DNA from: an uncultured bacterium | GTDB lineage: Bacteria > Bacillota > Clostridia > Lachnospirales > Lachnospiraceae | Assembly (NCBI GenBank): GCA_947063875.1 | Contig: CAMSTY010000006.1 | Span: 1-64,000, forward strand | Direction of reading: 5' to 3' | DNA: 64,000 nucleotides | Part shown: piece after piece, positions 10,205 to 25,319 of the stretch | Position numbering within the stretch: position 1 is the stretch's first letter | How the letters are laid out: each line of letters begins with the position of its first letter | Notes under the pieces: model-generated | Database searches by the model: none | What the model saw: only the letters and a program-made list of their open reading frames with translations | Told to the model about the DNA's origin: nothing | Made by a program: the position numbers and the translations under genes

Positions 10205-11476
10205 TTACTTGCTCCTTTTTTTGCCCACTGCTGTTTTTCTGCTGTCTGTCGACATTTCCGTCAACTGTTCCCAAAGAGGCTTTTTCCCTTTTTTTCGTGT
10301 CAGTTCCACCAAATTTAACTGTGTCATCTCCACAACGGTAGTTTTCACCGGATCAGCGGACGCAAAAACACGCAGCTGCTCCATTAAAAACGCTTTGTCC
10401 TCTTCCTCTTTCATATCAATAAAATCAATCATAATGATCCCGGACAAATTTCTTAAACGAAGCTGCCGGCAGATTTCCTTTGCGGCCTCCAGATTAATCA
10501 TGCGGATCGTATCAGCTTGATTCTTTTTTCCGGAGTATTTTCCGGTGTTTACGTCGACAACAACCATGGCCTCTGTTGGTTCAATGACCAGATACCCTCC
10601 GGATTTTAACCATACCTTCTTCTGACATGCCTGATCCAGAATCGTTTTCAAAGAATACAGATTTGTCAGAGATACGAGAGAATCCTGATAGAGCCGAAGC
10701 TTATCGGAATCCTCTGGCTGATAAAAATTCAGATATTTTTGTATGCGGTCATAAACATCTGCCTGATCGGTCAGAATTTCTTCCAACGTTCCGGTATGAG
10801 TGCTTTTCAGACTTTTTAAATACTCCGGTTCAGCCTGATAAAGAAGACTGCAGCAGGTGCGATAGGCGGCACAGGACAAAATATCCTGATATCTTTCCAG
10901 CAAGATTTGCACCTCATCCAAAAGCGCCTTATCCATCTGATATCCATTGGTTCTGACTATGACGCCGGTTTTTTCACCGATCAGCTTTTCCAGCCTGGGA
11001 CGAAGTTCATCCTTCCATGTCCGATCGTGGATTTTGGAAGAAAAGCTGACCGATTTTTTCCCGGCGGTCAGCACTGCATATTTTCCGGTAAAATTCAGAT
11101 TAGCCGTCAGTACCGGGTCTTTTGTCCGGATTGCTTCTTTTGCCACCTGGACAATGATTTCATCTCCGCCTTTCAGATTCCGGGAAGAAAAAAGATCCGA
11201 ATTTTCCGGTTCTGGTTTTTCCGGCTCCGATAATGCCAAGGCCCGTGATACCGGCAAAGATATCGGATTATCCTCCAAACTATAATATCCGGTGAATCCC
11301 TCTCCAAAATCCACAAATGCCGCGTTCAGATTTTTTACAATCCGGTTAATTCTTCCTATATAGATATTCCCCAGGATAGAAGCTTCTTCTTCCAACCCCA
11401 GTTCCAGAATCTCTTTCCCGGAAAATAATGCTGTCAGAATCCTGCTATTCCATCTGGTAATAATCAGCTTATTCAA
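10205..11476 (-). CDS. rng: Ribonuclease E/G family protein
   Basis: This 423-residue protein is a short RNase E/G, a 5'-monophosphate-sensitive endonuclease acting in rRNA and mRNA processing. The N-terminus carries an S1-like domain (GNIYIGRINRIVKNLNAAFV, FVDFGEGFTGYY), followed by the catalytic core with VVDVNTGKY and IIMIDFIDMKEEED, which supply the catalytic Asp residues. It lacks the long C-terminal scaffold of Escherichia coli RNase E. The start is TTG at 11476, overlapping the upstream gene by 8 bp (ATTGAATAA), with GGGAG before it. It ends the radical-SAM operon. Confidence 0.92.
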   Translation of the reverse strand: MNKLIITRWNSRILTALFSGKEILELGLEEEASILGNIYIGRINRIVKNLNAAFVDFGEGFTGYYSLEDNPISLPVSRALALSEPEKPEPENSDLFSSRNLKGGDEIIVQVAKEAIRTKDPVLTANLNFTGKYAVLTAGKKSVSFSSKIHDRTWKDELRPRLEKLIGEKTGVIVRTNGYQMDKALLDEVQILLERYQDILSCAAYRTCCSLLYQAEPEYLKSLKSTHTGTLEEILTDQADVYDRIQKYLNFYQPEDSDKLRLYQDSLVSLTNLYSLKTILDQACQKKVWLKSGGYLVIEPTEAMVVVDVNTGKYSGKKNQADTIRMINLEAAKEICRQLRLRNLSGIIMIDFIDMKEEEDKAFLMEQLRVFASADPVKTTVVEMTQLNLVELTRKKGKKPLWEQLTEMSTDSRKTAVGKKRSK

Positions 11477-12227
11477 TGTCTTCTCCCAATTGCTCTAAAG
11501 GACAGAAATTCGGTAATTCGGTCTCTGACTGGTTTGCATAGACTTCATCCCGGTGAATTAAAAGGGCAAATTCTCCTAATTTCTGACCACGGCTCTCCAT
11601 ATAAGCCTGCATGACCAGTTCCGGCTTTAAATTGGCAGCGCTTCCTGCTGCTATTCGCATCCGGATATTCCTGTCAGCTTCCTCACCCGATTCATTGCCT
11701 TCGCTGTGGGTTTTCTTGTCACATACCACTTCCAGCTTGTAAATCCATGGCCGGATATCTGTCTCCCGCTCTCCTTTTTTCGTTTTCTTTATCACAAGAA
11801 TCTGTTTCCTCTTCAGAAATTCTTCCCATCCGGAGGCAAAATCATCCCAATCCGAAGGTTCGTATCCCGCCCGGAAACGTACGGTATAATCAGCCGCTGC
11901 CACAAGCGACATAGCAGCTGCCGAAGAATCCGGGAGCTTTTTATAGCTTAATGCCTCCACCCCTTCTGTCAGGGCAGCATTGATTCGCCGCAGCATTTCC
12001 TCAGAGGAATCTGTGGAAAGCACCTCAATATCCACGTATTCGCCCCGACTGGTGATGCCGACCCCCAAAGGAGCGGCAAAGGACATGATCTGATGAGGAC
12101 TGAATCCTTCGCTGTAACGGATATCCACATTAGCCCGGCGCATTACCTTCTGAAAATAGCGCATCATATCAAGATGTCCGATAAATTTCATGGTGCCTTC
12201 TTTAGCAAACTTGATTCTGATCTTCAA
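11469..12227 (-). CDS. DUF2344 (TIGR03936-type) radical-SAM-linked protein
   Basis: The 252-residue protein matches the uncharacterised family always linked to the neighbouring radical SAM gene, and often fused to it. It starts LKIRIKFAKEG and continues MKFIGHLDMMRYFQKVMRRA and YSEGFSPHQ, the family N-terminus. A TTG at 12227 preceded by AAAGGAGG (8 bases) is the likely start; an upstream in-frame start at 12311 lies far inside the radical SAM gene. The two genes overlap by 26 bp. The function is unknown; a tRNA or ribosome modification role has been suggested from its neighbours and is only inference. Confidence 0.85.
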   Translation of the reverse strand: MKIRIKFAKEGTMKFIGHLDMMRYFQKVMRRANVDIRYSEGFSPHQIMSFAAPLGVGITSRGEYVDIEVLSTDSSEEMLRRINAALTEGVEALSYKKLPDSSAAAMSLVAAADYTVRFRAGYEPSDWDDFASGWEEFLKRKQILVIKKTKKGERETDIRPWIYKLEVVCDKKTHSEGNESGEEADRNIRMRIAAGSAANLKPELVMQAYMESRGQKLGEFALLIHRDEVYANQSETELPNFCPLEQLGEDIE

Positions 12228-14079
12228 AGCAGACCCCTCCTTTGAAAACTCGTGCGCCGCATCCGGAACAACGCTGGCGGCAATTGGGAGTGACTTTTTC
12301 ACTGATGGCATTCTGCCACTCCCTCATTAAAAATTCTTTTGTCACACCGGCATCGATAAAATCCCAGGGAAATATCTCATCCAGCGTCCTCTCCCTCGTG
12401 GTGTAAAAATCAATGGATATTCCACAGTCCTCAAAAGCCTGCATCCAGATTTCATTTTTAAAATGTTCTGTCCACGAATCATAGAGAGCCCCCTTTTGAT
12501 ACGCCCTCTCGATCACTTTCGATATTTTCCGGTCTCCGCGGGCAAGAACTCCCTCCAATATCGTCACATCTGCATCATGATAGCTGTATTTAAGACTCTT
12601 TTTGTTCTTCATTTCCTTAAATTTATCTTTTACGATATAAGCCCGCTGTAAAAATTCTTCCTGTGTACACATCTTTGCCCACTGAAACGGAGTAAATGGT
12701 TTTGGGACAAAAAAAGAAGAACTGGCTGTAACCTGTACCTTGCTGCTGCGTTTTTCTTTGGGAACCTCATCATAAAAGGCTTCTGCCACTTTTTCTGCCA
12801 ACAGGGCGATCCCCTCCATATCTTCCTTAGTTTCCGTGGGAAGTCCCAGCATGAAATACAGCTTTACCCGGTTCCAACCGCCCCGGAAGGCTTCCGCCGC
12901 TCCATTCAGGATCGCTTCCTCTGTCAACCCCTTATTGATTACATCACGCAGACGCTGAGTTCCCGCTTCCGGTGCAAAGGTCAGGCTGCTTTTTTTCACA
13001 TCCTGCACCTTGCTCATTACATCCAGAGAAAACGCGTCAATGCGTAATGACGGCAGAGAGATATTCACACCTTTTCCATGAAACTCATCAATCAGAAAAG
13101 TAACCAGCTCTTTCAGCTTGCTATAATCACTGGAACTTAAGGAACTTAAGGAGATTTCCTCATGGCCGGTACTGTTTAACATCTGATAGGCATATTTTTT
13201 TAGGTATTCCAGGGTATGCTCTCGAAGCGGCCGGTAAATATTGCCTGCCTGGCAAAAGCGGCATCCTCGGATGCACCCTCTCTGAATCTCCAGCACCACC
13301 CTGTCCTGAGTCACTTTGATGAATGGTACAATTGGATTTTCAATGTAGGGGGCGTCATCCGGATTCACGACCAGTTCCTTGGCAATCCTTTTCGGAACAC
13401 CATCCCGGTTTGGCTCAAAAGATGCAATAGTGCCATCCTCCTGATAGGCCACATCGTAAAACATCGGTACGTAAATCCCGGGAATCTCTGCAGCCGCCCT
13501 TAGGAAATCCTGGCGGCTGCCGCCATCAGCACGAATCTCTTTGTACAGGTCAAAAATACGGTCGTATTGGGTTTCCCCTTCTCCAATATAAAAAAGATCA
13601 AAGAACGGCGCCAGCGGCTCCGGATTATAGGCACAGGGTCCCCCCCCAATTACAATCGGGTCCTCCTCCGTCCGGTCTTCCCCATGAAAAGGAATCCCGC
13701 TTAAATCCAGAATCTGCAAAATATTGGTGTAACACATTTCATACTGGATGGTAATTCCAAGAAAATCAAAGTCTTTAACCGGGTCCTGGGATTCTAATGC
13801 AAAAAGCGGGAGGTGTTTCTGTCTCATGATCTCATCCAGATCGGTCCATGGCGAAAAAACCCGTTCGCACCAGACATCCTTTCGGCGATTGAACATGTCA
13901 TAAAGAATCTGCATTCCCAGATGGGACATGCCGATCTCATAGACGTCCGGGAAACACATGGCAAAACGGATGGCCACATCTTTCGGGTCCTTGACGCACA
14001 TGTTCACCTCGCCGCCGATGTAGCGGGCGGGCTGCTGGATACTTAGTAAAATTTCATCAGGTAAGGCTAGTTTTCTCAT
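12202..14079 (-). CDS. TIGR03960-type B12-binding radical SAM protein
   Basis: The 625-residue enzyme has an N-terminal cobalamin-binding-like region (FAMCFPDVYEIGMSHLGMQ, FDFLGITIQYE) and a radical SAM core with the [4Fe-4S] motif CIRGCRFCQ near residue 270, followed by SLSSSDYSKL and LTFAPEAGTQRLRDVINKG. Its own C-terminus has a CxxxCSGCG cluster (NCRQRCSGCGARVF). The reaction is unknown. It heads an operon with DUF2344 and RNase G, a conserved arrangement in clostridia. Confidence 0.88.
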   Translation of the reverse strand: MRKLALPDEILLSIQQPARYIGGEVNMCVKDPKDVAIRFAMCFPDVYEIGMSHLGMQILYDMFNRRKDVWCERVFSPWTDLDEIMRQKHLPLFALESQDPVKDFDFLGITIQYEMCYTNILQILDLSGIPFHGEDRTEEDPIVIGGGPCAYNPEPLAPFFDLFYIGEGETQYDRIFDLYKEIRADGGSRQDFLRAAAEIPGIYVPMFYDVAYQEDGTIASFEPNRDGVPKRIAKELVVNPDDAPYIENPIVPFIKVTQDRVVLEIQRGCIRGCRFCQAGNIYRPLREHTLEYLKKYAYQMLNSTGHEEISLSSLSSSDYSKLKELVTFLIDEFHGKGVNISLPSLRIDAFSLDVMSKVQDVKKSSLTFAPEAGTQRLRDVINKGLTEEAILNGAAEAFRGGWNRVKLYFMLGLPTETKEDMEGIALLAEKVAEAFYDEVPKEKRSSKVQVTASSSFFVPKPFTPFQWAKMCTQEEFLQRAYIVKDKFKEMKNKKSLKYSYHDADVTILEGVLARGDRKISKVIERAYQKGALYDSWTEHFKNEIWMQAFEDCGISIDFYTTRERTLDEIFPWDFIDAGVTKEFLMREWQNAISEKVTPNCRQRCSGCGARVFKGGVCFEDQNQVC

Positions 14080-14362: not shown

Positions 14363-14950
14363 TCAATCCTTATAAATATTTGCTAATGTAACATTTCCAG
14401 AAGCAAACATACCGCCATAGCCATAGGCAATAATTGTTCCAAGCATATGTCCGTTTGGTATACGAGCGGCAAACACAATTACAGGCATGACCGCAAAATA
14501 CAAAAACAGACAGTTGAGAATAATCTGAATAAATGTCTGCAATACTGATGTTACAGAAATTCCCGGAAATCCCATCACGAAAACGGCAATTACCGTGAAT
14601 GCCGCACTTACCAGCCCAAAAAACAAAGACAGCAGCGCACATACAAGCAGCTTCCCCCATAACAGGCTGCTATAAGGAACAGGAATAGTCATAATACTTT
14701 TCAGCGTATCGTCTTTCCCTTCCCTTGCTATGATATATCCGGCAATGAGGGCAATGCACATGGGGAAAATCGTTGTGGCATTATTTTTGATTACCTGCTC
14801 TGTAAAAAAGGAAAATGTCCAAACCGTTCCGTCCAATGCAGTTGTGGAAAAAAGCGTTAATACGACGGAAAGCAGCATTAGAAAAACACCTGCCCATATC
14901 ATATGATACCGCTTTAATTTCCATATTTCGGTCTTAACCATGCGAAACAT
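14363..14950 (-). pseudogene. Truncated ABC-2 permease (MutG/EpiG-like)
   Basis: The 195-residue product resembles permease subunits of lantibiotic self-protection or multidrug ABC-2 transporters: KTEIWKLKRYHMIWAG at the start, then about five membrane segments and FASGNVTLANIYKD at the end. Family members usually run to about 240-250 residues with one more membrane segment, so the C-terminus looks lost. GAGAGGGG lies 9 bases before ATG 14950. No ATPase of the same system is nearby. Probably non-functional. Confidence 0.6.
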
Positions 14951-14951
14951 A

Positions 14952-15542
14952 TCATTCATCCCCTCTCTTTTTATACATATAATCAATCACGATTACGGAA
15001 AGCAAAGCGATAACGGCTAAAATAATGATTGTCTGAAATGTAGTCGGAATTAAATATTCCAGCATTCCCACGCCGTCCATAGCGCCATGTGCGGTTAAAT
15101 TTCCTGCGCTCCATAGGGTTGTAAGCGGAATAGGCATCAGCCAGCACATCACTTTGGGCAGTGCGCCAAAAGAGGATTCGGCTGTCAGGCTCAGGACACT
15201 ATAAAAGACACGTAATAAAACAGAAAATACATAGTTCTTACTAAAGAAAACCACAAGAACGACTAACGGCAGCGTTCCGGCTGTAATAAAAATTCCCATT
15301 TCCAACGCAAAAAATAATCGATAAACAATGCTGTTTACTTCTGCGATCAGTCCACCGCACAGGATTGTTATAAGAACCGATGTCAGACTGAAAATAATTT
15401 CAAAAAAGAACAGGACAATTCCCATGACAAACTGAAAATAGTCTGTGTAAGAATAATCATTACGACGCAGGTAATTGGATTCCTTCCCGCTTTTACGATA
15501 CAAGATAAAGCGGAACCACACTTTTATATTGTTTCCCGTCAA
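14952..15542 (-). pseudogene. 5'-truncated ABC-2 permease (MutE/EpiE-like)
   Basis: The open frame codes for a second ABC-2-type permease, recognisable from about residue 38 (MGIVLFFFEIIF) to the end, with 5 or so membrane helices. The usual N-terminus is missing: the frame instead reads backwards into the last 50 bp of the ferric ABC ATPase gene in a different frame. It is adjacent to the truncated partner permease. The pair looks like the remains of a lantibiotic-immunity-type transporter left by a deletion next to the iron operon. Confidence 0.55.
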
Positions 15543-16281
15543 GATGAATATCTTCTATATAAACCTGGACGGAAAATGCGTTCCGCATATTTTTCTCGTT
15601 GATGACCTCTTCTGCTCTTCCAAAGAGATCGCTGCCGTTCTTATTTAAGATCAACGCCTTGTTGGATATCTTTAAAGCATGCTCTGGATAATGGGTATTT
15701 ACCACGGCAGAGATCCCCCTTTTTTCTGAAAGTGCCTTGATGGTTTCCAGAATGATAAGCTGATTTTTAAAATCCAGATTGGATTCCGGTTCATCGAGCA
15801 CCAGCATGGACGGCGAAATGGTCAATGCCCGTGCGATCAGCACCATCTGCAGTTCACCGCCGCTCATCTTGGTACACAGCTTGTCTCGAAGATGCCTGAT
15901 TCCCATATCCTCCATGGCCGCCTCGGCCGCCTCATAATCTTCTTTTCCCGGCTGAGCAAAAGTACCGAGATGGGCACTCCGCCCAAGAGTCACCATATCA
16001 AGGGCCGAATAGCCAAAAGCAGCTCCCCTGGCCTGGGGAACATAGGCAATCTTCTGCCAGAGTTCTCTTGGCTTTATACGGGAAATATCTGTTCCGTCCA
16101 ACATGGAAGTTCCTTTTTTCCATTTCAAAAGTCCCATCATGCATTTCAATAGTGTGGTTTTTCCCACTCCATTGGGACCTAAAACAGAGAGAATCTCCCC
16201 ATCCTCCACCCAAAAGTTAATGTCATCCAGTATCATTTCACTTTGATAGCCGAAAGATCCGCCTTTCACCTCGAATCTCAT
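15493..16281 (-). CDS. FecE/FhuC-type ABC transporter ATPase of the nitrogenase-like operon
   Basis: This 262-residue ATPase energises uptake of a metal chelate, siderophore or corrinoid. It has Walker A GPNGVGKTT, signature MSGGELQ and Walker B MLVLDEPESNLD. The start is ATG 16281, which shares the ATGA overlap with the permease stop and lies 9 bases after AGGAGG. It is the last intact gene of the leftward operon containing nifH-like and nifD/K-like genes. The substrate is not determinable from the ATPase. Confidence 0.92.
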   Translation of the reverse strand: MRFEVKGGSFGYQSEMILDDINFWVEDGEILSVLGPNGVGKTTLLKCMMGLLKWKKGTSMLDGTDISRIKPRELWQKIAYVPQARGAAFGYSALDMVTLGRSAHLGTFAQPGKEDYEAAEAAMEDMGIRHLRDKLCTKMSGGELQMVLIARALTISPSMLVLDEPESNLDFKNQLIILETIKALSEKRGISAVVNTHYPEHALKISNKALILNKNGSDLFGRAEEVINEKNMRNAFSVQVYIEDIHLDGKQYKSVVPLYLVS

Positions 16282-17300
16282 CCCCAAACACCTCCTGTTT
16301 TTCTCAGCAGCATAATGAACACGGGTGCCCCGATAATGGCGGTCAGAATCGAGATGGGAATTTCGGCTGCCGTGGCGCTCCTGGCAAAAGTGTCCATAAT
16401 AATCATGAAAAAAGCGCCCAAAGAGATACCTAACGGAACAACAAAGCGGTTATCATTCCCACCGATCATTCTGGCAATGTGAGGAACCAACAGTCCTACC
16501 CAGCCTACCTGTCCGCACATGGAAACACTGGAAGCCGTTATCATGGAAGCAGCTACGATAATAAGGAGCCGCATCATATGGATGTTCACCCCAAGGGAAC
16601 TGGCCTCGTCATCATTGAGGGACAGGATATTTAAGCGCCATCTCAGAGCAAAGATAATGGCGATCCCGCCAATAATAAAAGGAAGGCCCAGTTTCAGATT
16701 CTTATAACTGGCCCTTGACATACTCCCCATCAGCCAATAGGTGATCACTGGAAGCTGATCCTCCTGGTCGGCAACATATTTAATCAGAGATACCAATGCC
16801 TCAAATACTGCAGATATGACCATCCCTGCCAGCACGATCATAATGATGCCGCTTCTTCCGTTCTTGCGGCTGATGGAATATGTGATATAGCATGACAGAA
16901 GGCCAAAGACCAATGCCGCTATCTGGATACTCAAAAGACTGCCGTTAAACAGCATCATCATCACTGCTCCAAAAGATGCGCCGCTGGCTACTCCCAGGGT
17001 GTCTGGTGTGGCCAGCGGATTGGAGAACAGTCCCTGAAAGGCGGTGCCTGCACAGGAAAGTCCGGCACCCACTGCCCCGGCTAGGAGTATCCTCGGAAGC
17101 CGGATCTGAAAAAGGACTGATAGTTCTTTTGGATCGGCCTGTCTGTCTGTAAAATGCGAAGCCAAAAGTTCAATGGTATCCTTTATGCCGAGAGAATACC
17201 GCCCGATGCCAAGGCATATCACTGCTGCCAGGATAGGCAGAAGAAACAGCAACCCTGACAAAATGCAGATGGGAACTCTTTTTTTACCAGCAATATTCAT
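16278..17300 (-). CDS. FecCD-family permease of a metal-chelate ABC importer
   Basis: The 340-residue permease has about nine or ten membrane helices and the family motifs RIPRILLAGAVGAGLSCAG, FSNPLATPDTLGV and GWVGLLVPHIARMIGG. FecCD proteins form the channel for iron-siderophore, heme or cobalamin uptake. It overlaps the upstream binding-protein gene by ATGA and the downstream ATPase gene by ATGA, which indicates a fixed stoichiometric unit. Confidence 0.94.
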   Translation of the reverse strand: MNIAGKKRVPICILSGLLFLLPILAAVICLGIGRYSLGIKDTIELLASHFTDRQADPKELSVLFQIRLPRILLAGAVGAGLSCAGTAFQGLFSNPLATPDTLGVASGASFGAVMMMLFNGSLLSIQIAALVFGLLSCYITYSISRKNGRSGIIMIVLAGMVISAVFEALVSLIKYVADQEDQLPVITYWLMGSMSRASYKNLKLGLPFIIGGIAIIFALRWRLNILSLNDDEASSLGVNIHMMRLLIIVAASMITASSVSMCGQVGWVGLLVPHIARMIGGNDNRFVVPLGISLGAFFMIIMDTFARSATAAEIPISILTAIIGAPVFIMLLRKTGGVWG

Positions 17301-18532
17301 TGTTTTACTCCGGATGCCTCTCTTGCAGGATGATAGATCGTTTCCAGTTCCTCATCGGACAGTGCCACATGATAATGGGTCTGGTAAAAGTTTTTGATCC
17401 TTGCATCCAGATCCAAATCCGCAAAACGTTCCGGCTGAGTCGTCTTTGCAAGCCACATGAGGACTAACGGAGTATCGGAGGCCGGCGGAAACCAACGGTA
17501 CATTCCCAGGGGGAATTTGTAGACCTGCCCGTTCTTGACTGCGGATACGCCGCTCCAGTCATAACCATCAATGGTGTTATTTAACAGATCCTCCGGCAGA
17601 TAGGGGCTGAAATTAGTGATCAGGATGATATCAGGATCCCATTCATAAACCTGCTCCATATTGATCTCCGCCGTGCCGGTAAGTTCTGCCGCCACATTGT
17701 TGGCTCCTGCCTTATCCAGCCAGTATTCGCTGAAAAAGTGGGAACCTGCCGTGGTCATAGCCCCGTTGGCATAGTTAAATATGATGAGAACGTTGGGCCG
17801 CTCTTCTGACGGAATAGTCTCCGTGATGGCAGAAATCTCTTCTGCGGTCCTTCTTCCATCCTCGATAATCTCATTGGCAGTTTCCTGCTCGCCATAAATC
17901 TCACCGAACAATGCGATCCACTGGGCATATGTCTCCACACAGTCATAGTCAGCGATGGTAGTGGAGAAACCAACACATGGGATGCCCGCCTTGGCAAACA
18001 GTTCCCGTTCTTCCGAATTGGCAGCGCTGTAAAATACCACATCCGGATCTAAAGTAAGGAGCTGTTCGATGTTGATGGAGCCGTTCTCCACAAAACTTGT
18101 ATCTGCATCCAGAATCTCCGGATATACCTTCACAAGGTAGGAATTCTCAGCCGCCGCCATGGAACTTGGATGGATACCCACAATCTCCTTGGCGCTGCCC
18201 CGGAACTGGCAAAATACCGAGGGAAGCGGCAGGATTCCCGAGATGACTACACGGTTAATTTCTGCAGGAAGGACTACTTCATTTCCGTTATGATCGATAA
18301 TGGTTCTTGTGGAACCCTCTGTCCCCGCCGTTTTCTCTTCGGCTTTCTCCCCGCCGTTTTCTGCTTCCTCAGATTTGTCCTCTTCTGCTTCCTCTTTGGC
18401 AGCAGCTTCCGTCTGCGCCGATGTCTTTTGAGGAGCTTTGTCGTTGGAGCTTCCCTGACTGCAGCCGGTCATCACCGCTGCTCCCAAAACACAGCAGGCC
18501 GCAATACACGCAATAAGTTGCTTTTTTCTCAT
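17297..18532 (-). CDS. Metal-chelate ABC importer binding lipoprotein (FecB/FepB family)
   Basis: The protein of about 411 residues begins MRKKQLIACIAACCV and has a lipobox VMTGC, so it is a lipoprotein. A Lys/Glu-rich linker precedes a type-III periplasmic-binding fold that starts RTIIDHNGNEVVLP, as in iron-siderophore binding proteins. The body includes IEQLLTLDPDVVFYSA and NMEQVYEWDPDIILIT. ATG 18532 is preferred to 18544 because the latter directly abuts the AAGGAA site. It sits between the nitrogenase-like genes and the permease. Confidence 0.9.
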   Translation of the reverse strand: MRKKQLIACIAACCVLGAAVMTGCSQGSSNDKAPQKTSAQTEAAAKEEAEEDKSEEAENGGEKAEEKTAGTEGSTRTIIDHNGNEVVLPAEINRVVISGILPLPSVFCQFRGSAKEIVGIHPSSMAAAENSYLVKVYPEILDADTSFVENGSINIEQLLTLDPDVVFYSAANSEERELFAKAGIPCVGFSTTIADYDCVETYAQWIALFGEIYGEQETANEIIEDGRRTAEEISAITETIPSEERPNVLIIFNYANGAMTTAGSHFFSEYWLDKAGANNVAAELTGTAEINMEQVYEWDPDIILITNFSPYLPEDLLNNTIDGYDWSGVSAVKNGQVYKFPLGMYRWFPPASDTPLVLMWLAKTTQPERFADLDLDARIKNFYQTHYHVALSDEELETIYHPAREASGVKQ

Positions 18533-18562
18533 ATTAATCACCATTTCCTTATCATTTATTTT

Positions 18563-19735
18563 TTATCCTTGTTGTCTTTCCTGGGCCGCTAAAACGGCAT
18601 TGCGGATCATGGTTTCCATACTTTCCCCAAGATAGGAGGGATATCTGTCAAGATACAAACGTCCGGAAAGAGCCACATGGGGCAACTCCACAAAGGTCAC
18701 ATTTTCCCTTTTCAGGATACCGCCGATCTCCGGGTCAGCAAGAATCACGGAATATCTTCCGCTGTTTATGGCCTCCCTCACACTCTTTTCCGTGGGGAGG
18801 TCCAGGTCATGTTCCATGGCAATCCGCGTATCCAAACCATACATGCTCCCTACCGTCACAGGGATATCGCTGAAAGAAGCGGCAAGTTCCCTGAGTGAAT
18901 TTGCAAAAATCTGTTCATGGATAATAAGAATTCCTCTTTTGCCTTCCGGCGGTTGTATGACAGGGGACTCTCCTGCCAGCTTTTTTCTAAAGAGACTTCC
19001 GCCTCCAACGGGGACCGTACATATATAAGGAATGCCATACCGTTTTTTCATGTATTCCGCGGCATCCAGTCCGCACCGTGCCGTGACGATATTGATATCT
19101 GCGTTGGCTGCCCTTCGGACTTGCTCCAGTGTAAGTCCCATAGCAAAGCTGGCATTTATGGAAAAGCCGGCTTCCTCAATGCAGGCACAGATCTCTTCTG
19201 CATTTTTTTCGCTGCCCATATCAATGGACAAAAGGCCAAGCACATTCACAAAGCGTTTCCCCTGCCTGTTTGTCTTGATACCCTCTATGGGCTCTGCAAA
19301 ATATCTTAACAGCTTTAAAAATACATCCGATGCACCTCTGTCATAATAATGCTGGCCTGTGGTATTAAAGCCAAAGCACGGGATACCGGAGGCCACCTCC
19401 GTTTCCGCTGCCATTCCCTCCAGGTCAATGCCGATTACCATAGGGACAGGGCTCCCCAGATAGGAGATCATGGTTGGATTCAGGTCTTTTGCCGCCATTA
19501 AGGCTCCGTCAATAAACTTTTTGTCGTTTCCCAGAATCGCATCCATCCGCCTCAGCCCAGAACAGTAAACCGCAGATCGGGAGCCAAACCATCTTGGTTC
19601 ATCAAACCCCGTATAATTTCCTGTACAGCCGGAAGCGTCATGCATGACAACAATACCTCCCAGATCAAACAGCGCGGAGGCCGCCCCCGAATAATCCGGG
19701 GCAACCGGCGGCAAATCGATACAAAGTACACTCAT
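18563..19735 (-). CDS. Nitrogenase component 1-like protein (NifD/NifK fold), first type
   Basis: The 390-residue protein has the nitrogenase component-1 fold. The region VVMHDASGCTGNYTGFD with Cys37 corresponds to the P-cluster-ligand HGPxGC region of NifD/NifK; YCSGLRRMDAILGNDKKF with Cys58 and MISYLGSPVPMVIGIDLEG match the following conserved segments. It is shorter than NifD or NifK (about 480-520 residues) and lacks an obvious FeMo-cofactor-binding C-terminal region. It overlaps its partner gene by ATGA. With the NifH-like protein it should form a two-component reductase; the substrate is unknown. Chlorophyllide-type, F430-type, methylthioalkane-type or a new reductase are all possible. 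Confidence 0.82.
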   Translation of the reverse strand: MSVLCIDLPPVAPDYSGAASALFDLGGIVVMHDASGCTGNYTGFDEPRWFGSRSAVYCSGLRRMDAILGNDKKFIDGALMAAKDLNPTMISYLGSPVPMVIGIDLEGMAAETEVASGIPCFGFNTTGQHYYDRGASDVFLKLLRYFAEPIEGIKTNRQGKRFVNVLGLLSIDMGSEKNAEEICACIEEAGFSINASFAMGLTLEQVRRAANADINIVTARCGLDAAEYMKKRYGIPYICTVPVGGGSLFRKKLAGESPVIQPPEGKRGILIIHEQIFANSLRELAASFSDIPVTVGSMYGLDTRIAMEHDLDLPTEKSVREAINSGRYSVILADPEIGGILKRENVTFVELPHVALSGRLYLDRYPSYLGESMETMIRNAVLAAQERQQG

Positions 19736-21006
19736 ATGATCAGCTTCGCCTCCTTGATCATAGTCTTTACATCCGCATCCCGGACATATGCCTCTCCTAT
19801 CATCTCCATAAGGCGGCAGATCCCGTCATAACCGAAAAACCCTTCATCCTGCATAAGATTTACCACCTTGCCGGACCCGGTCATATATCCGCAGTCAAAA
19901 CCAATGCAGAGATACTGCCTGCCTTCATAGGGAAAAACCACCGCATCATATCTCACGGGATTTGTCATCAGGGTCTGCGGACTGATTTTTAAAAGCTTCT
20001 CATAGTTCTCTCTTTCATGGCCGGCCACCGTATCGGAAGCGATCATACCCACACGAATCCCGTTCTCTGCCAGCATACAGCCCAGAGAATAAGGCTTTAA
20101 CACTGCCTGATAGTCAATGGCTACCGGATATTCTCCGATCTGTTCCCTCAACTTTTTGACTGCATCCAGTGCTTTTTCCCGATAACTGAATGACGGCGTT
20201 TCAAAATCCACCCCAAGAGCCTCTGACAGTTCTCTGTAAAAACTGTCGATTTCCTCCGGATCATAGGTCACAAACCCTTTTATGTAGGGAATATCCAGCC
20301 TTTCCTCCATTTCCTGGGCTGCTTTTAAAGCAATGGGGCCGGCTACGATATTTAAGCATGCGTCCGACATATGGGAAAATTCATCAAAACTCTTACAATC
20401 TGACACATTGCAGAGACGATAGCCTTTTTCCCGAAGGAGTCCTTTCAAATCTCCCGTCTCAGGCAGTGTCACATTGCACCCTAAAATATTGACTATCTTC
20501 TCCTTTTTTTCCGTCTTTTCCAACAAACTGTATATGTTCATATTGAGGGTGATCCCCGGCGGAAGAGAACTGTCCAGAGAGATCGGATTCATCTTACAGT
20601 GCCGGAACAAAACCTCAGGATACATCCCGGAAAGTTCTGCGTTGATGGCATCATGATCCGTACCCAGAAGATCATCCAGACAGGAGGTAAAGATAAATAG
20701 TACCCTTGGCTTTTTCTTCAAAGCCTCAAACAACTCCCCTACACTGTCGATAATCATCTGCTCAAACTCCCCAGACACAATATCCGCTTCCGTGATAAAC
20801 AAATAGGACACCCTGTCCTTAATCCCACATTCCTTGCCGCCTAGGGCCGTATGGCGTCCGCAGGCAAAGGGACATACAAATAAAAGATAGCTCTCCGGCA
20901 CCAGAGCCGCGATCCGGACGATTCCCCATCCCCCATGTGCCGCCGACACATAGTGCATGGTGGAGCACTCCCCTGCCCTTCCTTTTGATAGGCTGCAGTT
21001 TTCCAT
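19732..21006 (-). CDS. Nitrogenase component 1-like protein (NifD/NifK fold), second type
   Basis: The 424-residue protein is a second, different component-1 homologue. It carries HGGWGIVRIAALV, FVCPFACGRHTALGG (Cys45, Cys49) and SYLFITEADIVSGEFEQ, the equivalent of the TEKDIVFGG segment of nitrogenases, then FIFTSCLDDLLGTDHDAI. The Cys arrangement near the N-terminus (4, 14, 45, 49, 60) differs from classical NifD and NifK. It starts 1 bp after the nifH-like stop with GAGGAGG in front and is fused by ATGA to the next component-1 gene, so the two are probably made in equal amounts as a heteromer. Confidence 0.82.
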   Translation of the reverse strand: MENCSLSKGRAGECSTMHYVSAAHGGWGIVRIAALVPESYLLFVCPFACGRHTALGGKECGIKDRVSYLFITEADIVSGEFEQMIIDSVGELFEALKKKPRVLFIFTSCLDDLLGTDHDAINAELSGMYPEVLFRHCKMNPISLDSSLPPGITLNMNIYSLLEKTEKKEKIVNILGCNVTLPETGDLKGLLREKGYRLCNVSDCKSFDEFSHMSDACLNIVAGPIALKAAQEMEERLDIPYIKGFVTYDPEEIDSFYRELSEALGVDFETPSFSYREKALDAVKKLREQIGEYPVAIDYQAVLKPYSLGCMLAENGIRVGMIASDTVAGHERENYEKLLKISPQTLMTNPVRYDAVVFPYEGRQYLCIGFDCGYMTGSGKVVNLMQDEGFFGYDGICRLMEMIGEAYVRDADVKTMIKEAKLII

Positions 21007-21007
21007 G

Positions 21008-21769
21008 TCACACCTCCTCCGTCACTTCCATAACCCTTGCCGCCAATTTTCGATAACATAATGCCATTTCCGAATCCGGCAGCGCCTCGATCACGGTTTT
21101 CCCTCTGTTTTCCGCCTCCTGCACCGCACTGTCACGAGGGATGATAGAAAGGATATCTCCACCGATCTCATCCAGAGTTTTTTGCACCAGCATTTCCTCA
21201 TCCGGTACGTTCCTGGCGTTCAGGATCACACCGGAGTATCTGGCATACCCGCGTTTCCCAAAATTCTCCACTGCACTGACGATATTGGAAGCCGCATAGA
21301 GTGCCATCATCTCCCCGGATGTTACGATAAGGACATTTTTCGCATAGCCGCCACGGATCGGCATAGCAAAACCGCCGCATACCACATCTCCCAGGACATC
21401 GTACAGAATGACATCCGGTTTGCATATCTCATATGCCCCCAACTCTTCCAACTTCTCGAAAGCCGTGATGATCCCTCTGCCCGCACATCCAATCCCTGGT
21501 GTCGGCCCCCCGGCTTCTACACACCACACGCCTCCATAGCCCTGAAACAGCACATCTTCTGCTTTCAAACCTCCCTCCCCTTTTTCCCGAAGAGCATCCA
21601 AAACAGAACTGATCTGCTTTCCTCCTGTCAGGTTTTTTGTCGAATCGGCTTTGGGGTCGCAGCCGATCTGCAGGACACGGTATCCGGCATCGGAAAGCGC
21701 CGCCGCAAGATTTGAAGTTGTAGTGGACTTTCCGATACCTCCTTTTCCATAAATCGCAATTTTTCTCAT
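21008..21769 (-). CDS. NifH-like iron protein of a nitrogenase-like system
   Basis: This 253-residue P-loop ATPase matches nitrogenase iron proteins and their relatives BchL, CfbC and MarH. Visible are the deviant Walker [10 protein letters not shown] at residues 8-16, the [11 protein letters not shown] loop, and the two Cys that ligate the bridging [4Fe-4S] cluster of the dimer, Cys95 (GIGCAGRG) and Cys131 ([10 protein letters not shown]). It is shorter than NifH (about 275-295) at the C-terminus. It would pass electrons with ATP hydrolysis to the two component-1-like proteins encoded directly downstream. It is first in the operon and has a strong promoter. Confidence 0.9.
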
Positions 21770-21789
21770 AGTTCCCCTTTCCTATCATG

Positions 21790-21805
21790 GTTAGATTCCA
21801 CTAAC
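21790..21805. promoter_or_regulatory. Palindrome GTTAG-N6-CTAAC, copy 1
   Basis: GTTAGATTCCACTAAC is an exact inverted repeat of 5 bp arms with a 6-base spacer, 20 bp before the nifH-like start in its leader. The same architecture recurs at 21873-21888 and imperfectly at 22083-22098. A repressor site is likely by inference. Confidence 0.6.
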
Positions 21806-21872
21806 TTCTACCCCAAAAAATATGCCATATCTGAAACAGTATACAGCATATGTTTTCTATGATAATCCATTG

Positions 21873-21888
21873 GTTAGCAAAAACTAAC
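21873..21888. promoter_or_regulatory. Palindrome GTTAG-N6-CTAAC, copy 2
   Basis: GTTAGCAAAAACTAAC, with the same arms and spacer as copy 1, lies 4 bp downstream of the -10 of the nifH-like promoter, over the transcription start, a classic repressor position. Confidence 0.65.
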
Positions 21889-21892
21889 TGAA

Positions 21893-21922
21893 AGTATAAC
21901 ACAAACACTTTTTTCGTGTCAA
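21893..21922 (-). promoter_or_regulatory. Promoter of the nitrogenase-like operon
   Basis: On the minus strand TTGACA (21922-21917), 18 bases, TATACT (21898-21893). The start of transcription would fall within the GTTAG/CTAAC palindrome at 21873-21888. Confidence 0.8.
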
Positions 21923-22044
21923 TTGCTGCTGCCAGGGGTAATCGGTCAATTTTTCTCATTTCTTATCTTACTTTTGTCCCATCATAAACCCCTTCCTCCA
22001 GATCTACTACTCATAGCTGCCGGCTTTATTGAGAAAAAATGTAA

Positions 22045-22075
22045 TTGACATTATCCTACTGCTTTGATAGGATAA
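22045..22075 (+). promoter_or_regulatory. Promoter of the rightward operon with an internal palindrome
   Basis: TTGACA (22045-22050), 17 bases, TAGGAT (22068-22073). The spacer and -10 hold a perfect 8-bp inverted repeat, TTATCCTA (22051-22058) and TAGGATAA (22068-22075), so a protein bound there would block RNA polymerase. It differs from the GTTAG/CTAAC sites. Confidence 0.72.
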
Positions 22076-22082
22076 TCGACGA

Positions 22083-22098
22083 GTTAGCATAACCTAGT
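22083..22098. promoter_or_regulatory. Imperfect GTTAG-N6-CTAAC copy 3
   Basis: GTTAGCATAACCTAGT keeps the left arm and spacing but only 3 of 5 bases of the right arm. Its AGTTAGCATAACCTAG core also resembles the right-hand part of DtxR/IdeR iron boxes (GGTTAGCCTAACCTAA). It lies just downstream of the rightward -10. Confidence 0.45.
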
Positions 22099-22120
22099 CA
22101 ATGATGGGAGGGATATCCTT

Positions 22121-22741
22121 ATGCAGTATATATGGATCAATCCTGTAGTAAAACAAATGTATGATAAGGAAGTCCTGGAGTCTCTGTTAGAACGGCATGG
22201 ATATCAGCAGGTCAGCTGTCGGCAGGATTGGGGTTATTATGTATGTGATTCCTATGGAAGATTGGCGGAAGTATCCGGCGTCCCTGTGGCGGATGTCCGA
22301 TGCCCCTCCGTATCAAAATTGCTGAGAGAAAACTATAAGCAGTCCCCGCTCCTGATTCCAGAGATTGAACCGATTCTCATCCACTGTGCCAGGGAGATCA
22401 GTGAACGAACGGAGTTAAAGGGTAAAAAGAAGCTTATCATCACCCCCTGTCAGGCCCTGGCCCGTATGGGAACTCAATGCCAGCTTCCCGATACTTGCTT
22501 TCTGACTTGGAAACAGTTTCTGATCGAAATAAAAGAACATCCCAAAGCAAAACAGCTGAACGCCAGTCCCATACCTCCCGGATTCTTTCAGTCCCTTAAC
22601 TGCCCTTCAATCAGCATCACAGGGGCCAGCGAAATCTGCACTTATCTGGAAAAAAACAGGTTTAAGAATACAGGTGTCATCGAACTCCTCTGGTGCAGGG
22701 ATGGATGCCATCATGGAGACGGGGTGATCAATCTTGAATAA
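22121..22741 (+). CDS. Cys-rich protein resembling part of the [FeFe]-hydrogenase catalytic domain
   Basis: I do not know a characterised homologue. The 206-residue protein has 11 Cys (33, 42, 61, 89, 110, 120, 126, 161, 173, 192, 196). IITPCQALARMG around Cys110 looks like the second H-cluster motif of [FeFe] hydrogenases (MPCxxKK), and ELLWCRDGCHHGDGV near the C-terminus looks like the third (EVMACPGGCxxGGGQ). The first motif (TSCCPxW) is missing and there are no ferredoxin-type clusters. GGGAGG lies 9 bases before the ATG. It leads the operon with the SsuABC-type importer and is divergent from the nitrogenase-like operon. A redox or Fe-S role is inference. Confidence 0.7.
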   Translation: MQYIWINPVVKQMYDKEVLESLLERHGYQQVSCRQDWGYYVCDSYGRLAEVSGVPVADVRCPSVSKLLRENYKQSPLLIPEIEPILIHCAREISERTELKGKKKLIITPCQALARMGTQCQLPDTCFLTWKQFLIEIKEHPKAKQLNASPIPPGFFQSLNCPSISITGASEICTYLEKNRFKNTGVIELLWCRDGCHHGDGVINLE

Positions 22742-23501
22742 ATGGAAAACATTCCTCATTCCCGCAGCCTGCCTGACAGTGCTCTTTTTTCTCTGGTATG
22801 GGATCTGCAATATGGGGATATTCAGTACCTATGTCCTGCCCTCCCCCGGCAAGGTCTGGGGAAGCTTCCAAAAAATGCTTCTGTCCGGGGAAGTATTCCG
22901 GGATATCATGATCAGTATGGGCAGGGTTTTCAAGGGCTTTGCCATTGCCTTTGTACTGGCTTTCCTTCTGGGGATGATTCGGGCAATGATCCCGGCCTCA
23001 GGAGTTTTTTATGAATATTTAGTACAGTTTTTCCGCAATGTGCCGCCCCTGAGCCTGATCCCGCTTTTGATCCTGTGGTGCGGGATCGGGGAAACCACGA
23101 AAACGGTGATCATTGTTCTGGCTTCCTTTTTCCCCATGTATCTAAATATCGTTAAGGGGTTTACAGGTTGTGACAGGAAGCTTCTGGAAGTAGGCAAGGT
23201 ATTTGGGTATTCCCGGCTGAAACAGTTTGTAAAGATCACTCTTCCCTATGCATCCGCCGATATCCTGGTAGGCATGAGGATCGGCTTGGGATACAGCTGG
23301 CGGGCCATCATCGGGGCTGAGATGGTTGCGGCCTCCTCTGGACTGGGACATATGATCCTGTTTGCCCAGCAGATGTCACGAACCGATAAGGTGATTGTCG
23401 GAATCCTGGTAATCGGCCTTATCGGGTACGGGACAGATCGGATTTTCGGATGGGCCATAAAAAAACTGCTGAAAGGATCCTGTGAAAATGGCTGGAATTG
23501 A
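22734..23501 (+). CDS. SsuC/TauC-type ABC transporter permease
   Basis: The 255-residue permease of the nitrate/sulfonate/taurine family has about six membrane helices, starting with FLIPAACLTVLFFLWYG, and the EAA-like cytoplasmic loop GRKLLEVGKVFGYSRLKQF in a close variant (about residues 145-165). The start is TTG at 22734, overlapping the upstream gene by 8 bp, with GGGGTGAT in front. It forms an importer with the next two genes. Confidence 0.9.
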   Translation: MNKWKTFLIPAACLTVLFFLWYGICNMGIFSTYVLPSPGKVWGSFQKMLLSGEVFRDIMISMGRVFKGFAIAFVLAFLLGMIRAMIPASGVFYEYLVQFFRNVPPLSLIPLLILWCGIGETTKTVIIVLASFFPMYLNIVKGFTGCDRKLLEVGKVFGYSRLKQFVKITLPYASADILVGMRIGLGYSWRAIIGAEMVAASSGLGHMILFAQQMSRTDKVIVGILVIGLIGYGTDRIFGWAIKKLLKGSCENGWN

Positions 23502-24204
23502 ACTGGTAAAACTTGAAAAACACTATGTAGTAGAGGGAAAGACAATACCTGTCTTAACTGGGATCAACCTGCAGATACCGGAGGAACGCATCACAGTGAT
23601 CCTTGGAAAAAGCGGCTGCGGGAAGACCACTCTCCTGCGTCTGGCAGGCGGCCTGGAAGATCCTGACGGCGGCAGTATCCATTATGGCCTCTCCCAAAGA
23701 ACCGCTTTTGTATTCCAGGAACCCAGGTTGATGCCTTGGCTGGATGTAACGGGCAATATCTGTTTCGGGTTGAAAAGACAGGAAATCCATAGGGACGAGA
23801 TCCACTCCATCATTCATACTGTGGGGTTGGATGGTTTTGAAAAAGCCTACCCATCCCAGCTTTCCGGAGGGATGCAGCAGCGGACCGCGATTGCCAGAGC
23901 CCTGGCTTACCATCCATCCTTTATCATGATGGACGAGCCTTTTGCCGCCCTGGACTATTTTACCAGGGAACAGATGCAGAGGGAACTGCTGCGGGTCTGG
24001 AAGAGCCAGAAGGCCAGCATCCTGTTTGTAACCCACAGCATTGATGAGGCCCTTCTCCTGGGGCATAAGATTGTCATCATTGAAAAAGGGGTTGTAAAAA
24101 CCGAATTTGAATTGCCAAAGGCAGGAGATTTTCGAAACCTCCTGGATGACAAATTTATCATGCTAAAACGCGAAATCATTGAAAATCTGAATGTAGCTGT
24201 TTAA
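23488..24204 (+). CDS. SsuB/TauB-type ABC transporter ATPase
   Basis: The 238-residue ATPase carries Walker A GKSGCGKTT, Q-loop FVFQEPRLMPW, signature LSGGMQQR and Walker B FIMMDEPFAALD. Such ATPases power uptake of sulfonates, taurine, nitrate, thiamine precursors or aromatic acids. ATG 23488 is 10 bases after AAAGGA; a GTG at 23482 is an alternative. It overlaps the permease gene by 14 bp. Confidence 0.92.
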   Translation: MAGIELVKLEKHYVVEGKTIPVLTGINLQIPEERITVILGKSGCGKTTLLRLAGGLEDPDGGSIHYGLSQRTAFVFQEPRLMPWLDVTGNICFGLKRQEIHRDEIHSIIHTVGLDGFEKAYPSQLSGGMQQRTAIARALAYHPSFIMMDEPFAALDYFTREQMQRELLRVWKSQKASILFVTHSIDEALLLGHKIVIIEKGVVKTEFELPKAGDFRNLLDDKFIMLKREIIENLNVAV

Positions 24205-24266
24205 GGCTCTTTACCTCGGACAGTTGCTATAAATGAGGTGTACTCAAAAAACAAGGAGGATCAATT

Positions 24267-25319
24267 ATGAGAAAACTTACATCCATGATGCTTGCCCTAT
24301 GTATAAGCACTTCCCTTCTGGTCGGATGTTCCGGCGGGGTAGGTCAGACTGCCACGGAAGCGCCACAAACGGAAGCCGCATCAAAAGAAGAATCTGCAAC
24401 CACAAAAGCAGAGACAGAAAACCAGGATACAAAGACCGGGGAATCTTCCGAATCTGACCTGGACAAGCTTGTATTTACCTATGTAACATCTCCCTTAAAC
24501 GTACCAACCATTGTCGAAAAGGAAAAAGCAATCTTTGCTGATACCTTTGCCGATATGGGAATCTCCATTGAGTACGCAGAGCTGACTTCCGGAGCGGACC
24601 AGACACAGGCCCTGGCTTCCGGCGATGTCCAGGTTCTCTATGCCGTAGGTGCTACTTCCGTCATCCTGTCAGCTGCCAATGGCGCTGATATCAAGGTACT
24701 GAACATGTACAGCCGTTCTCCTAAAGCGTTCTGCCTTTATTCTAAAGATGACAGCCTGACCAGCCCGGAATCTTTAAAAGGTAAAACGGTTGCCGGTCCT
24801 ATGGGTACCAATCTTCACGAACTTCTGGTGGCTTATCTGGCAACTGCCGGCATGACCGTGGAGGATGTGAATTTTGTCAATATGACGATCCCTGATGCCA
24901 ATGCCGGCTTGGAAAACGGCAGTGTTGATGTGGCTATGATTGCAGGCGCTACGGCCTACCAGGCCGAAAAGTCCGGACGCCATCTGGTTACGAATGGAGA
25001 AGGGTTAATCAATGCGATCATTGCAGTGGCAGTAAGGGATGATTTCTACCAGGAACATCCGGAAGTGATCGAAAAGCTTAAGAAAGCTCAGGAATCCATC
25101 TCTGAGTTTATGAATGAGAATCCGGATGAGACCATAGAACTTGTAGCAAAAGCTTTGGATCTGGATACTGAAGCAGTAAAGGATATGGTGCCACTTTATG
25201 ACTTCTCCCTGGAACTTACGGATGCTGACAGGGAAGGATTTCAAAGAACTGCAGATTTTATGCTGGAAACAGATATGATCGAAACTCCGGTAGACGTTAA
25301 TACATTATTTTATGAATAA
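24267..25319 (+). CDS. SsuA/NMT1-like substrate-binding lipoprotein
   Basis: The 350-residue protein has a signal peptide with lipobox LLVGC and a Thr/Glu/Lys-rich linker (to about residue 65), then the type-II binding fold of the sulfonate/nitrate/NMT1 family: TSPLNVPTIVEKEKAIF, SGADQTQALASGDVQVLYA and LKGKTVAGPMGTNLHELL. AAGGAGG lies 7 bases before the ATG. The permease and ATPase genes are directly upstream. The ligand is not known; context links it to the nitrogenase-like locus, where a sulfur or nitrogen compound would make sense. Confidence 0.9.
   Translation: MRKLTSMMLALCISTSLLVGCSGGVGQTATEAPQTEAASKEESATTKAETENQDTKTGESSESDLDKLVFTYVTSPLNVPTIVEKEKAIFADTFADMGISIEYAELTSGADQTQALASGDVQVLYAVGATSVILSAANGADIKVLNMYSRSPKAFCLYSKDDSLTSPESLKGKTVAGPMGTNLHELLVAYLATAGMTVEDVNFVNMTIPDANAGLENGSVDVAMIAGATAYQAEKSGRHLVTNGEGLINAIIAVAVRDDFYQEHPEVIEKLKKAQESISEFMNENPDETIELVAKALDLDTEAVKDMVPLYDFSLELTDADREGFQRTADFMLETDMIETPVDVNTLFYE

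Follow-up and report, generated by a model that had tools for sequence, protein, structure and literature searches.

A nitrogenase-like operon with a FecBCD-type importer in a Lachnospiraceae genome, and its relatives in hydrogenase-maturation operons

We analysed a stretch of 64,000 nucleotides (the window; positions 1 to 64,000 of contig CAMSTY010000006.1, assembly GCA_947063875.1) from an uncultured Lachnospiraceae bacterium, whose genome (G000) is 92% complete and assembled in 111 contigs. The locus under study consists of two divergent operons. The minus-strand operon carries a NifH-like reductase (H), two component-1-like proteins (K and D) and an ATP-binding cassette (ABC) importer of the FecBCD type. 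The plus-strand operon starts with a small protein, hyp22121, followed by an SsuABC-type importer. The features are as follows.

15493..16287, minus strand: ABC ATPase, 264 amino acids, TTG start (Pfam/NCBIfam)
16278..17300, minus strand: FecCD-type permease, 340 amino acids (Pfam/NCBIfam)
17297..18544, minus strand: FecB-like binding lipoprotein, 415 amino acids (PDB search)
18563..19735, minus strand: D, component-1-like protein, 390 amino acids; Cys37 the sole family-wide Cys, Ser at the third cluster position
19732..21006, minus strand: K, component-1-like protein, 424 amino acids; Cys49 and Cys109
21008..21769, minus strand: H, NifH-like reductase, 253 amino acids; P-loop and Cys95/Cys131 retained
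21790..21805, unstranded: putative operator, second copy, 21 bases ahead of H (pattern match)
21873..21888, unstranded: putative operator GTTAG-N6-CTAAC, directly past the -10 box of the H-operon promoter match (pattern match)
21893..21922, minus strand: promoter-like TTGACA-18-TATACT, H operon (by consensus match only, a strong one)
22045..22073, plus strand: promoter-like TTGACA-17-TAGGAT, hyp22121 operon (consensus match only)
22083..22098, unstranded: degenerate copy of the putative operator, 2 mismatches (by eye, unscored)
22121..22741, plus strand: hyp22121, small protein that looks derived from the [FeFe]-hydrogenase cluster domain, 206 amino acids; Cys61, 110, 192 and 196 retained
22734..23501, plus strand: SsuC-like permease (Pfam/NCBIfam)
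23482..24204, plus strand: SsuB-like ATPase (Pfam/NCBIfam)
24267..25319, plus strand: SsuA-like binding lipoprotein (165.7 bits against a cut-off of 163.5)

A first-pass annotation, made from the letters alone, had named these genes, and all of them lie where it placed them and in the families it gave, as judged by Pfam and NCBIfam. H matches Fer4_NifH (319.9 bits), and the two component-1-like proteins match Oxidored_nitro (98.6 and 80.9 bits). The minus-strand importer shows Peripla_BP_2, FecCD and ABC_tran domains, and the plus-strand importer BPD_transp_1, ABC_tran and NMT1 / SsuA_fam. The minus-strand genes are tightly packed in the order H-K-D-FecB-FecCD-ATPase. They had been described as joined by ATGA overlaps; this is correct for K/D and FecB/FecCD, which overlap by 4 bases, but FecCD and the ATPase overlap by 10 bases, H and K are 1 base apart and D and FecB 18 bases. 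An Rfam scan of the window returned two tRNAs only and no riboswitch at gathering scores.

By its sequence, the H-K-D trio is a member of an uncharacterised nitrogenase-like family, for which no function was found in the open-access literature searched. Each of the three proteins falls below every NCBIfam cut-off: H scores 341.8 bits with the NifH model (cut-off 394.35) and 335 with CfbC (cut-off 402), and the matches to BchL (201.9 bits/cut-off 345.15), BchX (191.8/331.2) and BchB (46.6/490.35) likewise stay under the cut-offs, in agreement with the early view that this is not a standard nitrogenase or chlorophyll system. In the 92% complete genome, K and D of the window are the only Oxidored_nitro (PF00148) genes, so that no nifD, nifK, nifE, nifN, bchN or bchB gene was seen; nifB, which had also been listed as absent, was not searched for.

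The conservation of cysteines was counted on 152 D, 138 K and 121 H relatives, sorted into the clades A, B/C2 and C1 described below. Several of the Fe-S ligands first proposed were found conserved family-wide: Cys95 and Cys131 of H are retained across the relatives, Cys37 of D in 100% of each clade and Cys49 of K in 98-100%. Others were not, since Cys45 of K is not family-wide (62% of 24 in C1) and Cys58 of D is conserved in C1 only (95% of 24), and Cys109 of K, present in 100% of each clade, had been missed. The cluster-type Cys kept in all clades are one in D and two in K (a 2+1 set), and the third cluster position of D is occupied by Ser95. Some clades carry additional conserved Cys, a C-terminal pair in the K proteins of B/C2 (89% and 83%) and K positions 48, 106 and 122 and D position 42 (window numbering) in clade A, which may mark different metal sites.

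We compared this arrangement with described systems. K has its best PDB match with 9fmg/9d9u (E 5e-5, labelled only 'Nitrogenase'), which we take to be Mar, and the trio shares with MarHDK a Group IV-like fold. According to the parts of PMC11423573 available to us, which also cover the other enzymes compared here, MarD keeps three cluster Cys, whereas window D has one; no MarB-type gene is found in the operon. Nitrogenase has 3+3 cluster Cys in D and K (PMC11423573), against 2 in K and 1 in D here. DPOR (BchLNB) uses three Cys plus Asp (PMC11423573), and a four-ligand site made of three Cys and another ligand is possible in window K-D; however, the window Cys are split 2 (K) + 1 (D) and the scores remain far under the BchL and BchB cut-offs. 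CfbCD of F430 synthesis, with whose CfbC the window H has its sub-threshold likeness, has no K homologue (PMC11423573), while K is present in the window. As far as tested, the trio would not be a described reductase. It is set apart by cut-offs and Cys sets, and none of the described clades that could be tested holds it, in a tree that lacked true Isr, Mar, Cfb and Nfa.

Isr came into serious consideration through its SsuCAB importer. In Rhodobacter capsulatus, IsrBHDK likewise combines a NifH-like protein and two component-1-like proteins with SsuCAB, and in IsrD the only cluster Cys is accompanied by Pro/Ser at the third position (PMC11423573), where window D has Ser95. An Isr-type sulfonate reductase would import a sulfonate such as isethionate through SsuABC and cleave its C-S bond with H-K-D. 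Several features speak against this. The Isr set is 1 Cys in D and 3 in K (PMC11423573), compared to 1 + 2 in the window. The radical-SAM protein IsrB, needed beside H, is missing from the operon, in which H is the first gene and the order is H-K-D; the nearest radical-SAM gene (Radical_SAM_N2, 12202-14079) lies 1.4 kb past the operon end, beside a housekeeping-looking protein pair. Moreover, the trio travels with FecBCD, which is part of the operon, and not with SsuABC. Taken together, these differences make an Isr-type function very improbable.

The homologue set draws on 24 genomes from the genus, 397 from the family and one named genome collection. A match was found in 5 of the 24 genus genomes, the window's own included, and at least 580 relatives were confirmed among at least 596 pattern matches in the named collection; the neighbourhood, whose absence from related genomes had been proposed as a test, is present in them. 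After removal of identical D proteins (183 of 194 kept), a tree was built from a chosen 76. Clade A, whose 13 rows all bear the label of a HypF gene after the trio, lies on one side of a branch supported at 100/99, and clade B/C2 (32 rows) is likewise supported at 100/99. Window D falls in neither; it groups at 100/100 with the loci L060, L103 and L104 (L and G numbers are our handles for loci and genomes), inside C1. Taken as one group, C1 is a grade with weak support (87/0). Two FecBCD loci, L120 and L123, together with L018, fall with clade A. Trees of K and H, made with a quick method, concur on clade A and on the nearest kin of the window.

The clades differ in their neighbours. The clade A trio is followed by HypF, HypD and HypE, clade B has HydE, HydF or TM1266 nearby, and C2 has FecBCD with or without HydE, HydF and TM1266. 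Among 68 A/B loci, HydE/HydF/TM1266 occur in 45 and at least two of HypF/D/E in 48; for the 20 C2 loci the figures are 14 with HydE/HydF/TM1266 and 0 with Hyp genes. In the 29 C1 loci no Hyd or Hyp gene was found, nor in the window between 9000 and 32000. Since the clade labels were taken from gene neighbours, these counts are partly circular and the tree is the independent part. An A trio and a B trio share one locus in 41 loci, as in L173, where TM1266-HydF-HydE-H-K-D-H-K-D-HypF-HypD-HypE run in one direction, and in L124, which is alike without a TM1266 call. Inspection of 6 loci by eye showed a HypC-like frame (MCVG...) ahead of HypD in 5 of them; in L131 it is uncalled. L124, L127, L131, L132, L173, L176, L177 and about 60 further loci place H-K-D inside HypF-HypC-HypD-HypE and HydE/HydF/TM1266 operons, and most of the genomes concerned have no HydG. 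L018 (G016:C35, 1-11201) shows a variant order, K-D-H, followed by a 245-amino-acid [FeFe]-hydrogenase-B1-like protein; upstream of K-D-H are a branched-chain-type ABC importer and UroD-like and amidohydrolase-like genes (names by eye).

In C1, FecCD stands beside the trio in 25 of 29 loci, and these FecCD-linked loci include Oscillospiraceae, Christensenella, Synergistaceae and Treponema records. Two further partners were found, neither of them constant. A Crp-type regulator cluster occurs in 9 C1 loci, directly ahead of the trio in 7 (6 genomes), and a CobW/HypB/UreG-type GTPase lies near 3 (L103 8404-9096, L114 15471-16160, L095 5232-5936). In L095 and L114, SBP_bac_6 binding-protein genes lie close to the GTPase. 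More distant nitrogenase-like H/D (and K) sets, L214-L219, also lie with FecBCD-type importers in family genomes, and L215 and L219 have flavodoxin genes nearby. At the other end of the window operon, the ATPase is succeeded, without a change of strand, by a pair of ABC-2-type membrane genes that overlap each other (14363-15542, PF12730 in the second); across the loci compared they did not show up as constant partners of the trio. In the window (10205-14079) and in L060 (305-4056), the locus adjoins the same radical-SAM and RNase E/G genes, at opposite ends of the run.

The nature of the imported solute was approached through the importer genes. In a PDB search, the named kin of FecB bind iron, nickel or siderophores, or correspond to HI_1472, which presumably binds molybdate/tungstate. 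One could alternatively expect FecBCD to import haem, a corrinoid or another tetrapyrrole, whose ring H-K-D would reduce as BchLNB, BchXYZ and CfbCD do. Tetrapyrroles are substrates of known reductases with this fold, and permease and ATPase both have their best NCBIfam matches among corrinoid/B12 models, with scores of 226.6 and 166.1 bits that remain far under the cut-offs (461 and 537, respectively). However, FecB is nearer to iron/nickel-type binders than to any named B12 binder, and no tetrapyrrole gene is recurrent near C1 loci when clusters found in at least 3 loci are considered. We therefore consider a tetrapyrrole or corrinoid reductase unlikely.

The plus-strand operon appears as a module of its own. 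The protein hyp22121 was sought in 378 genomes and has 8 carriers, the window's included. SsuCBA adjoins it in 6 of the 7 other carriers (in G197 an unrelated oxidoreductase-like gene is found instead), and no trio stands beside it in any of these seven. The first-pass annotation had called it hydrogenase-like, which holds through its relatives: the window protein itself has no Pfam match, but an orthologue 64% identical to it passes PF02906 (23.7 against a cut-off of 22.1 bits; two others score below, 1 of 4 passing), and Cys61, Cys110, Cys192 and Cys196 are found in 8 of 8 orthologues. These four positions are presumably those of the [FeFe]-hydrogenase cluster, judging by the alignments made here. 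Position 60 is Arg in all eight, so that the second Cys of the hydrogenase CC motif, which serves in proton transfer, is absent. Comparison with a [FeFe]-B1-like protein by hhalign gave E 1e-4 (probability 58), and a PDB profile search placed hydrogenase CpI first in 18 of 20 rows, with E values of 0.06 and worse; a single-sequence structure prediction (mean pLDDT, the predicted confidence score, 34.5) was unusable. Overall, hyp22121 looks like a reduced hydrogenase cluster domain.

A comparable four-gene run is described in Clostridium difficile. In the parts of PMC6311696 available to us, ssuA2-ssuB2-ssuC2 and an 'iron hydrogenase-like' gene rise at low iron (log2 2.60, 2.91, 3.53 and 2.93) and in a fur mutant (log2 4.39, 4.50, 6.10 and 4.38).

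The two operons are connected by a putative operator, GTTAG-N6-CTAAC, present twice ahead of H; at least two such matches at one mismatch were obtained in 17 of 100 whole-window shuffles. Its 5-6-5 spacing is that of Crp-type sites. We scanned up to 300 bases upstream and the first 30 bases of the gene. The operator was found in 10 of 27 C1 operons exactly and in 16 at one mismatch, in 0/51 of clade A (3 at one mismatch), 0/49 of B and 0/18 of C2. Of 6000 stretches of 330 bases drawn at random from these loci, 18 carry it (37 at one mismatch). For the distant FecBCD-linked reductases, an operon walk gave 0/6 but missed sites in L215, 58 bases ahead of H, and in L218 and L219, ahead of other cluster genes; these three loci share the operator. 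It also lies 14-81 bases upstream of hyp22121 in 6 of the 7 other genomes at no more than one mismatch (three exact), the seventh showing two mismatches. In the window's genome the sites are the two described here, a pair in tandem ahead of a GH5 cellulase, one in the gap between a MerR gene and DUF3793, and one before an ABC exporter; DUF3793 heads a run of ZnuA, ATPase and ABC-3 permease genes.

The early view tied the reductase to both importers. The tie to FecBCD holds, whereas SsuABC belongs to the hyp22121 module and is tied to the trio by the shared operator. A chance juxtaposition of a sulfonate importer with a reductase system for metal chelates would agree with the lack of a trio by hyp22121 in the seven other carriers. 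Nevertheless, the same operator stands ahead of both operon types where they are apart, and we regard unrelated neighbours as distinctly unlikely.

HydG is the enzyme known to make the carbon monoxide and cyanide of the hydrogenase. HydF and HydG were called (E up to 1e-60) in the 397 family genomes, giving 173 with both (F+G+), 46 with HydF only (F+G-), 4 with HydG only (F-G+) and 174 with neither (F-G-). D, called from a best match of at least 198 bits, was found in 55 genomes: 38/46 F+G-, 8/173 F+G+, 0/4 F-G+ and 9/174 F-G-. The 41 genomes with A/B/C2 comprise 37 F+G-, 3 F+G+ (G246, G378, G416) and 1 F-G- (G197), compared to 1 F+G-, 4 F+G+ and 8 F-G- among the 13 with C1. The link to HydG absence has a Fisher p of 8e-30 for A/B/C2 and of 1.0 for C1, uncorrected for shared ancestry. 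For this split, G284, which is neither A/B/C2 nor C1, was left out; G092, G114, G397 and G405 were placed by HypD on the same contig as the D match; G267 and G334, with no Hyd/Hyp gene beside D, were assigned to A/B/C2 by default; and G307 was assigned to C1 by similarity, though the script label of its locus L206 is B. The F+G- genomes without such a D are G034, G137, G145, G151 (69% complete), G165, G203, G348 and G391. For C1, a test for a direct connection with the loss of HydG found none (1/46 F+G- against 4/173 F+G+ genomes).

A lenient HydG search was carried out in 80 chosen genomes, including 15 of the 38 F+G- genomes with D. None was found in these 15, and the 3 true HydG were all in controls; other matches were read as ThiH (~171-192 bits) or HydE (~31-85 bits), by score and some by adjoining HydF. 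A HydE-like match is present in 13 of the 15, while G384 has a weak one and G267 none; three of the 15 (G213, G254, G341) are single-contig genomes. HypD occurs in 34 of the 80 genomes and a [NiFe] large subunit in 10. All 24 genomes with HypD but without a [NiFe] gene are A/B carriers. Where A/B carriers do have a [NiFe] gene (six genomes), a second HypD is always present, located on the [NiFe] contig in five but not in G405. The Hyp genes at clade A/B loci do not go with a [NiFe] hydrogenase. [FeFe] H-domains were detected in 80/80 genomes, a count that alone proves nothing since strong H-domains also occur in five genomes without HydF, HydG or D (G026, G040, G045, G055, G062). In the HydG-containing genome G416 (C11, L204), a clade-B trio has a second HydF and an aspartate ammonia-lyase alongside.

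Because A/B/C2 are confined mostly to HydF+/HydG- genomes and HypD occurs there without a [NiFe] gene, these sister clades may, on genomic evidence, replace HydG in H-cluster assembly; this concerns relatives and not the window locus. As described in the parts of PMC9431212 available to us, Clostridium ljungdahlii has HydE, HydF and HypCDEF but no HydG, HypA or HypB, with no straightforward explanation, and its close relatives show the same gap (HydE/HydF without standard HydG, HypCDEF without HypAB). The C. ljungdahlii ERI-2 locus L177 reads H-K-D-HypF-HypC-HypD-HypE-(122 amino acids)-H-K-D. Three points from the same parts of PMC9431212 weigh against a replacement of HydG: of the eight acetogens, all but C. 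autoethanogenum are given atypical HydG candidates; C. autoethanogenum, C. drakei and C. scatologenes have a standard HydG; and C. ljungdahlii is listed with a [NiFe] group 1a gene. Among the open-access titles and abstracts listed, no paper linked nitrogenase-like proteins to HydG, HydF, HypF or HypD.

Could the window trio itself aid H-cluster assembly, as an accessory to HydEFG? Its sister clades lie in Hyd/Hyp operons, a hydrogenase-domain protein adjoins it, and its nearest kin, L060, is from a HydF+/HydG- genome. In addition, an orthologue of hyp22121 in G165 follows TM1266-HydF-HydE and precedes SsuC-SsuB-SsuA in one run (L196, G165:C6, 6681-12747); neither HydG nor a trio or close D was found in G165, an arrangement that is perhaps another HydG replacement. 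Yet the window's clade itself does not lie in HydEFG/HypFCDE maturation operons (0 of 29 loci), its presence does not follow HydG absence, 8 of 13 C1 genomes have neither HydF nor HydG, and the window's genome has HydE, HydF and HydG. Such a role is quite improbable for the window trio.

The reading that we favour, tentatively and at somewhat less than an even chance, is that the window locus serves the import and ATP-driven reduction of a metal complex, probably of iron, under metal limitation. The minus-strand operon would be a metal-limitation module in which FecBCD brings in a metal compound in chelated form, with iron as the most likely metal. As a NifH-like ATPase, H would hand low-potential electrons to the K-D pair, which would hold one Fe-S cluster on split ligands (K Cys49, K Cys109, D Cys37 and a fourth) and reduce the imported compound, freeing or transforming its metal. 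The divergent operon, hyp22121 and SsuABC, would be the second arm of the same regulon. This reading is favoured because of FecCD in 25/29 C1 loci and the operator ahead of C1 operons; because the operator is also found ahead of the hyp22121 module in relatives and by the ZnuA/ABC-3 importer run of the window's genome; because the PDB kin of FecB bind metals or their complexes and a CobW/HypB/UreG-type GTPase lies near three C1 loci; and because the C. difficile run is up at low iron and in the fur mutant, in the available parts of PMC6311696. Gene content, conservation, clade and operator distribution are read directly from the sequences, while metal, electron transfer and substrate are what we infer from them. 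Of the alternatives left by the first-pass annotation, import and reduction of a metal chelate or of a small organic compound, the metal chelate is favoured and the proposal is partly supported. It was incomplete, as the separateness of the Ssu module and the hydrogenase-maturation operons of the sister clades are not visible from the window.

Several observations weigh against the metal-complex reading. FecBCD-type importers also carry corrinoids, haem and molybdate. The operator pattern was discovered in the window, itself one of the 27 C1 operons, and 11 of the 27 lack it even at one mismatch. Exact matches in the window's genome are found at 6 places, compared with 4 for a backwards control, and one of these places, the tandem pair, lies ahead of a cellulase. 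From the SsuA-like protein one would expect the second arm to take up a sulfonate-type solute. Finally, the C. difficile run, likened to the window module by order and annotation only, has no Fur box and is also tied to sulfur control, according to the available parts of PMC6311696.

If the chemistry is the reduction of an iron complex at the expense of ATP, the presence of two sister clades in Hyp and Hyd maturation operons would be accounted for. A wider proposal, which we hold to be doubtful, is that the whole family is an ATP-driven reductase for iron complexes. Clade A with HypF-HypC-HypD-HypE and B/C2 with HydE and HydF would then build the [FeFe] cofactor independently of HydG, with cyanide from the Hyp proteins and carbon monoxide or an iron-carbonyl unit from nitrogenase-like reduction. 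C2, whose loci are without Hyp genes, would instead draw on an iron unit taken up via FecBCD. C1, with the hydrogenase-domain protein, would be an uptake branch used at iron scarcity.

A function is known for few nitrogenase-like enzymes (DPOR, COR, Cfb, Mar, Isr), and the family described here is widespread. Its sister clades offer a testable answer to the published HydG gap in C. ljungdahlii and relatives (PMC9431212, in the parts available) and, if this is true, there would be a second route of H-cluster assembly, using nitrogenase-like enzymes. For the window, if the favoured reading is true, a reductase for imported metal compounds would join the means of anaerobic metal acquisition.

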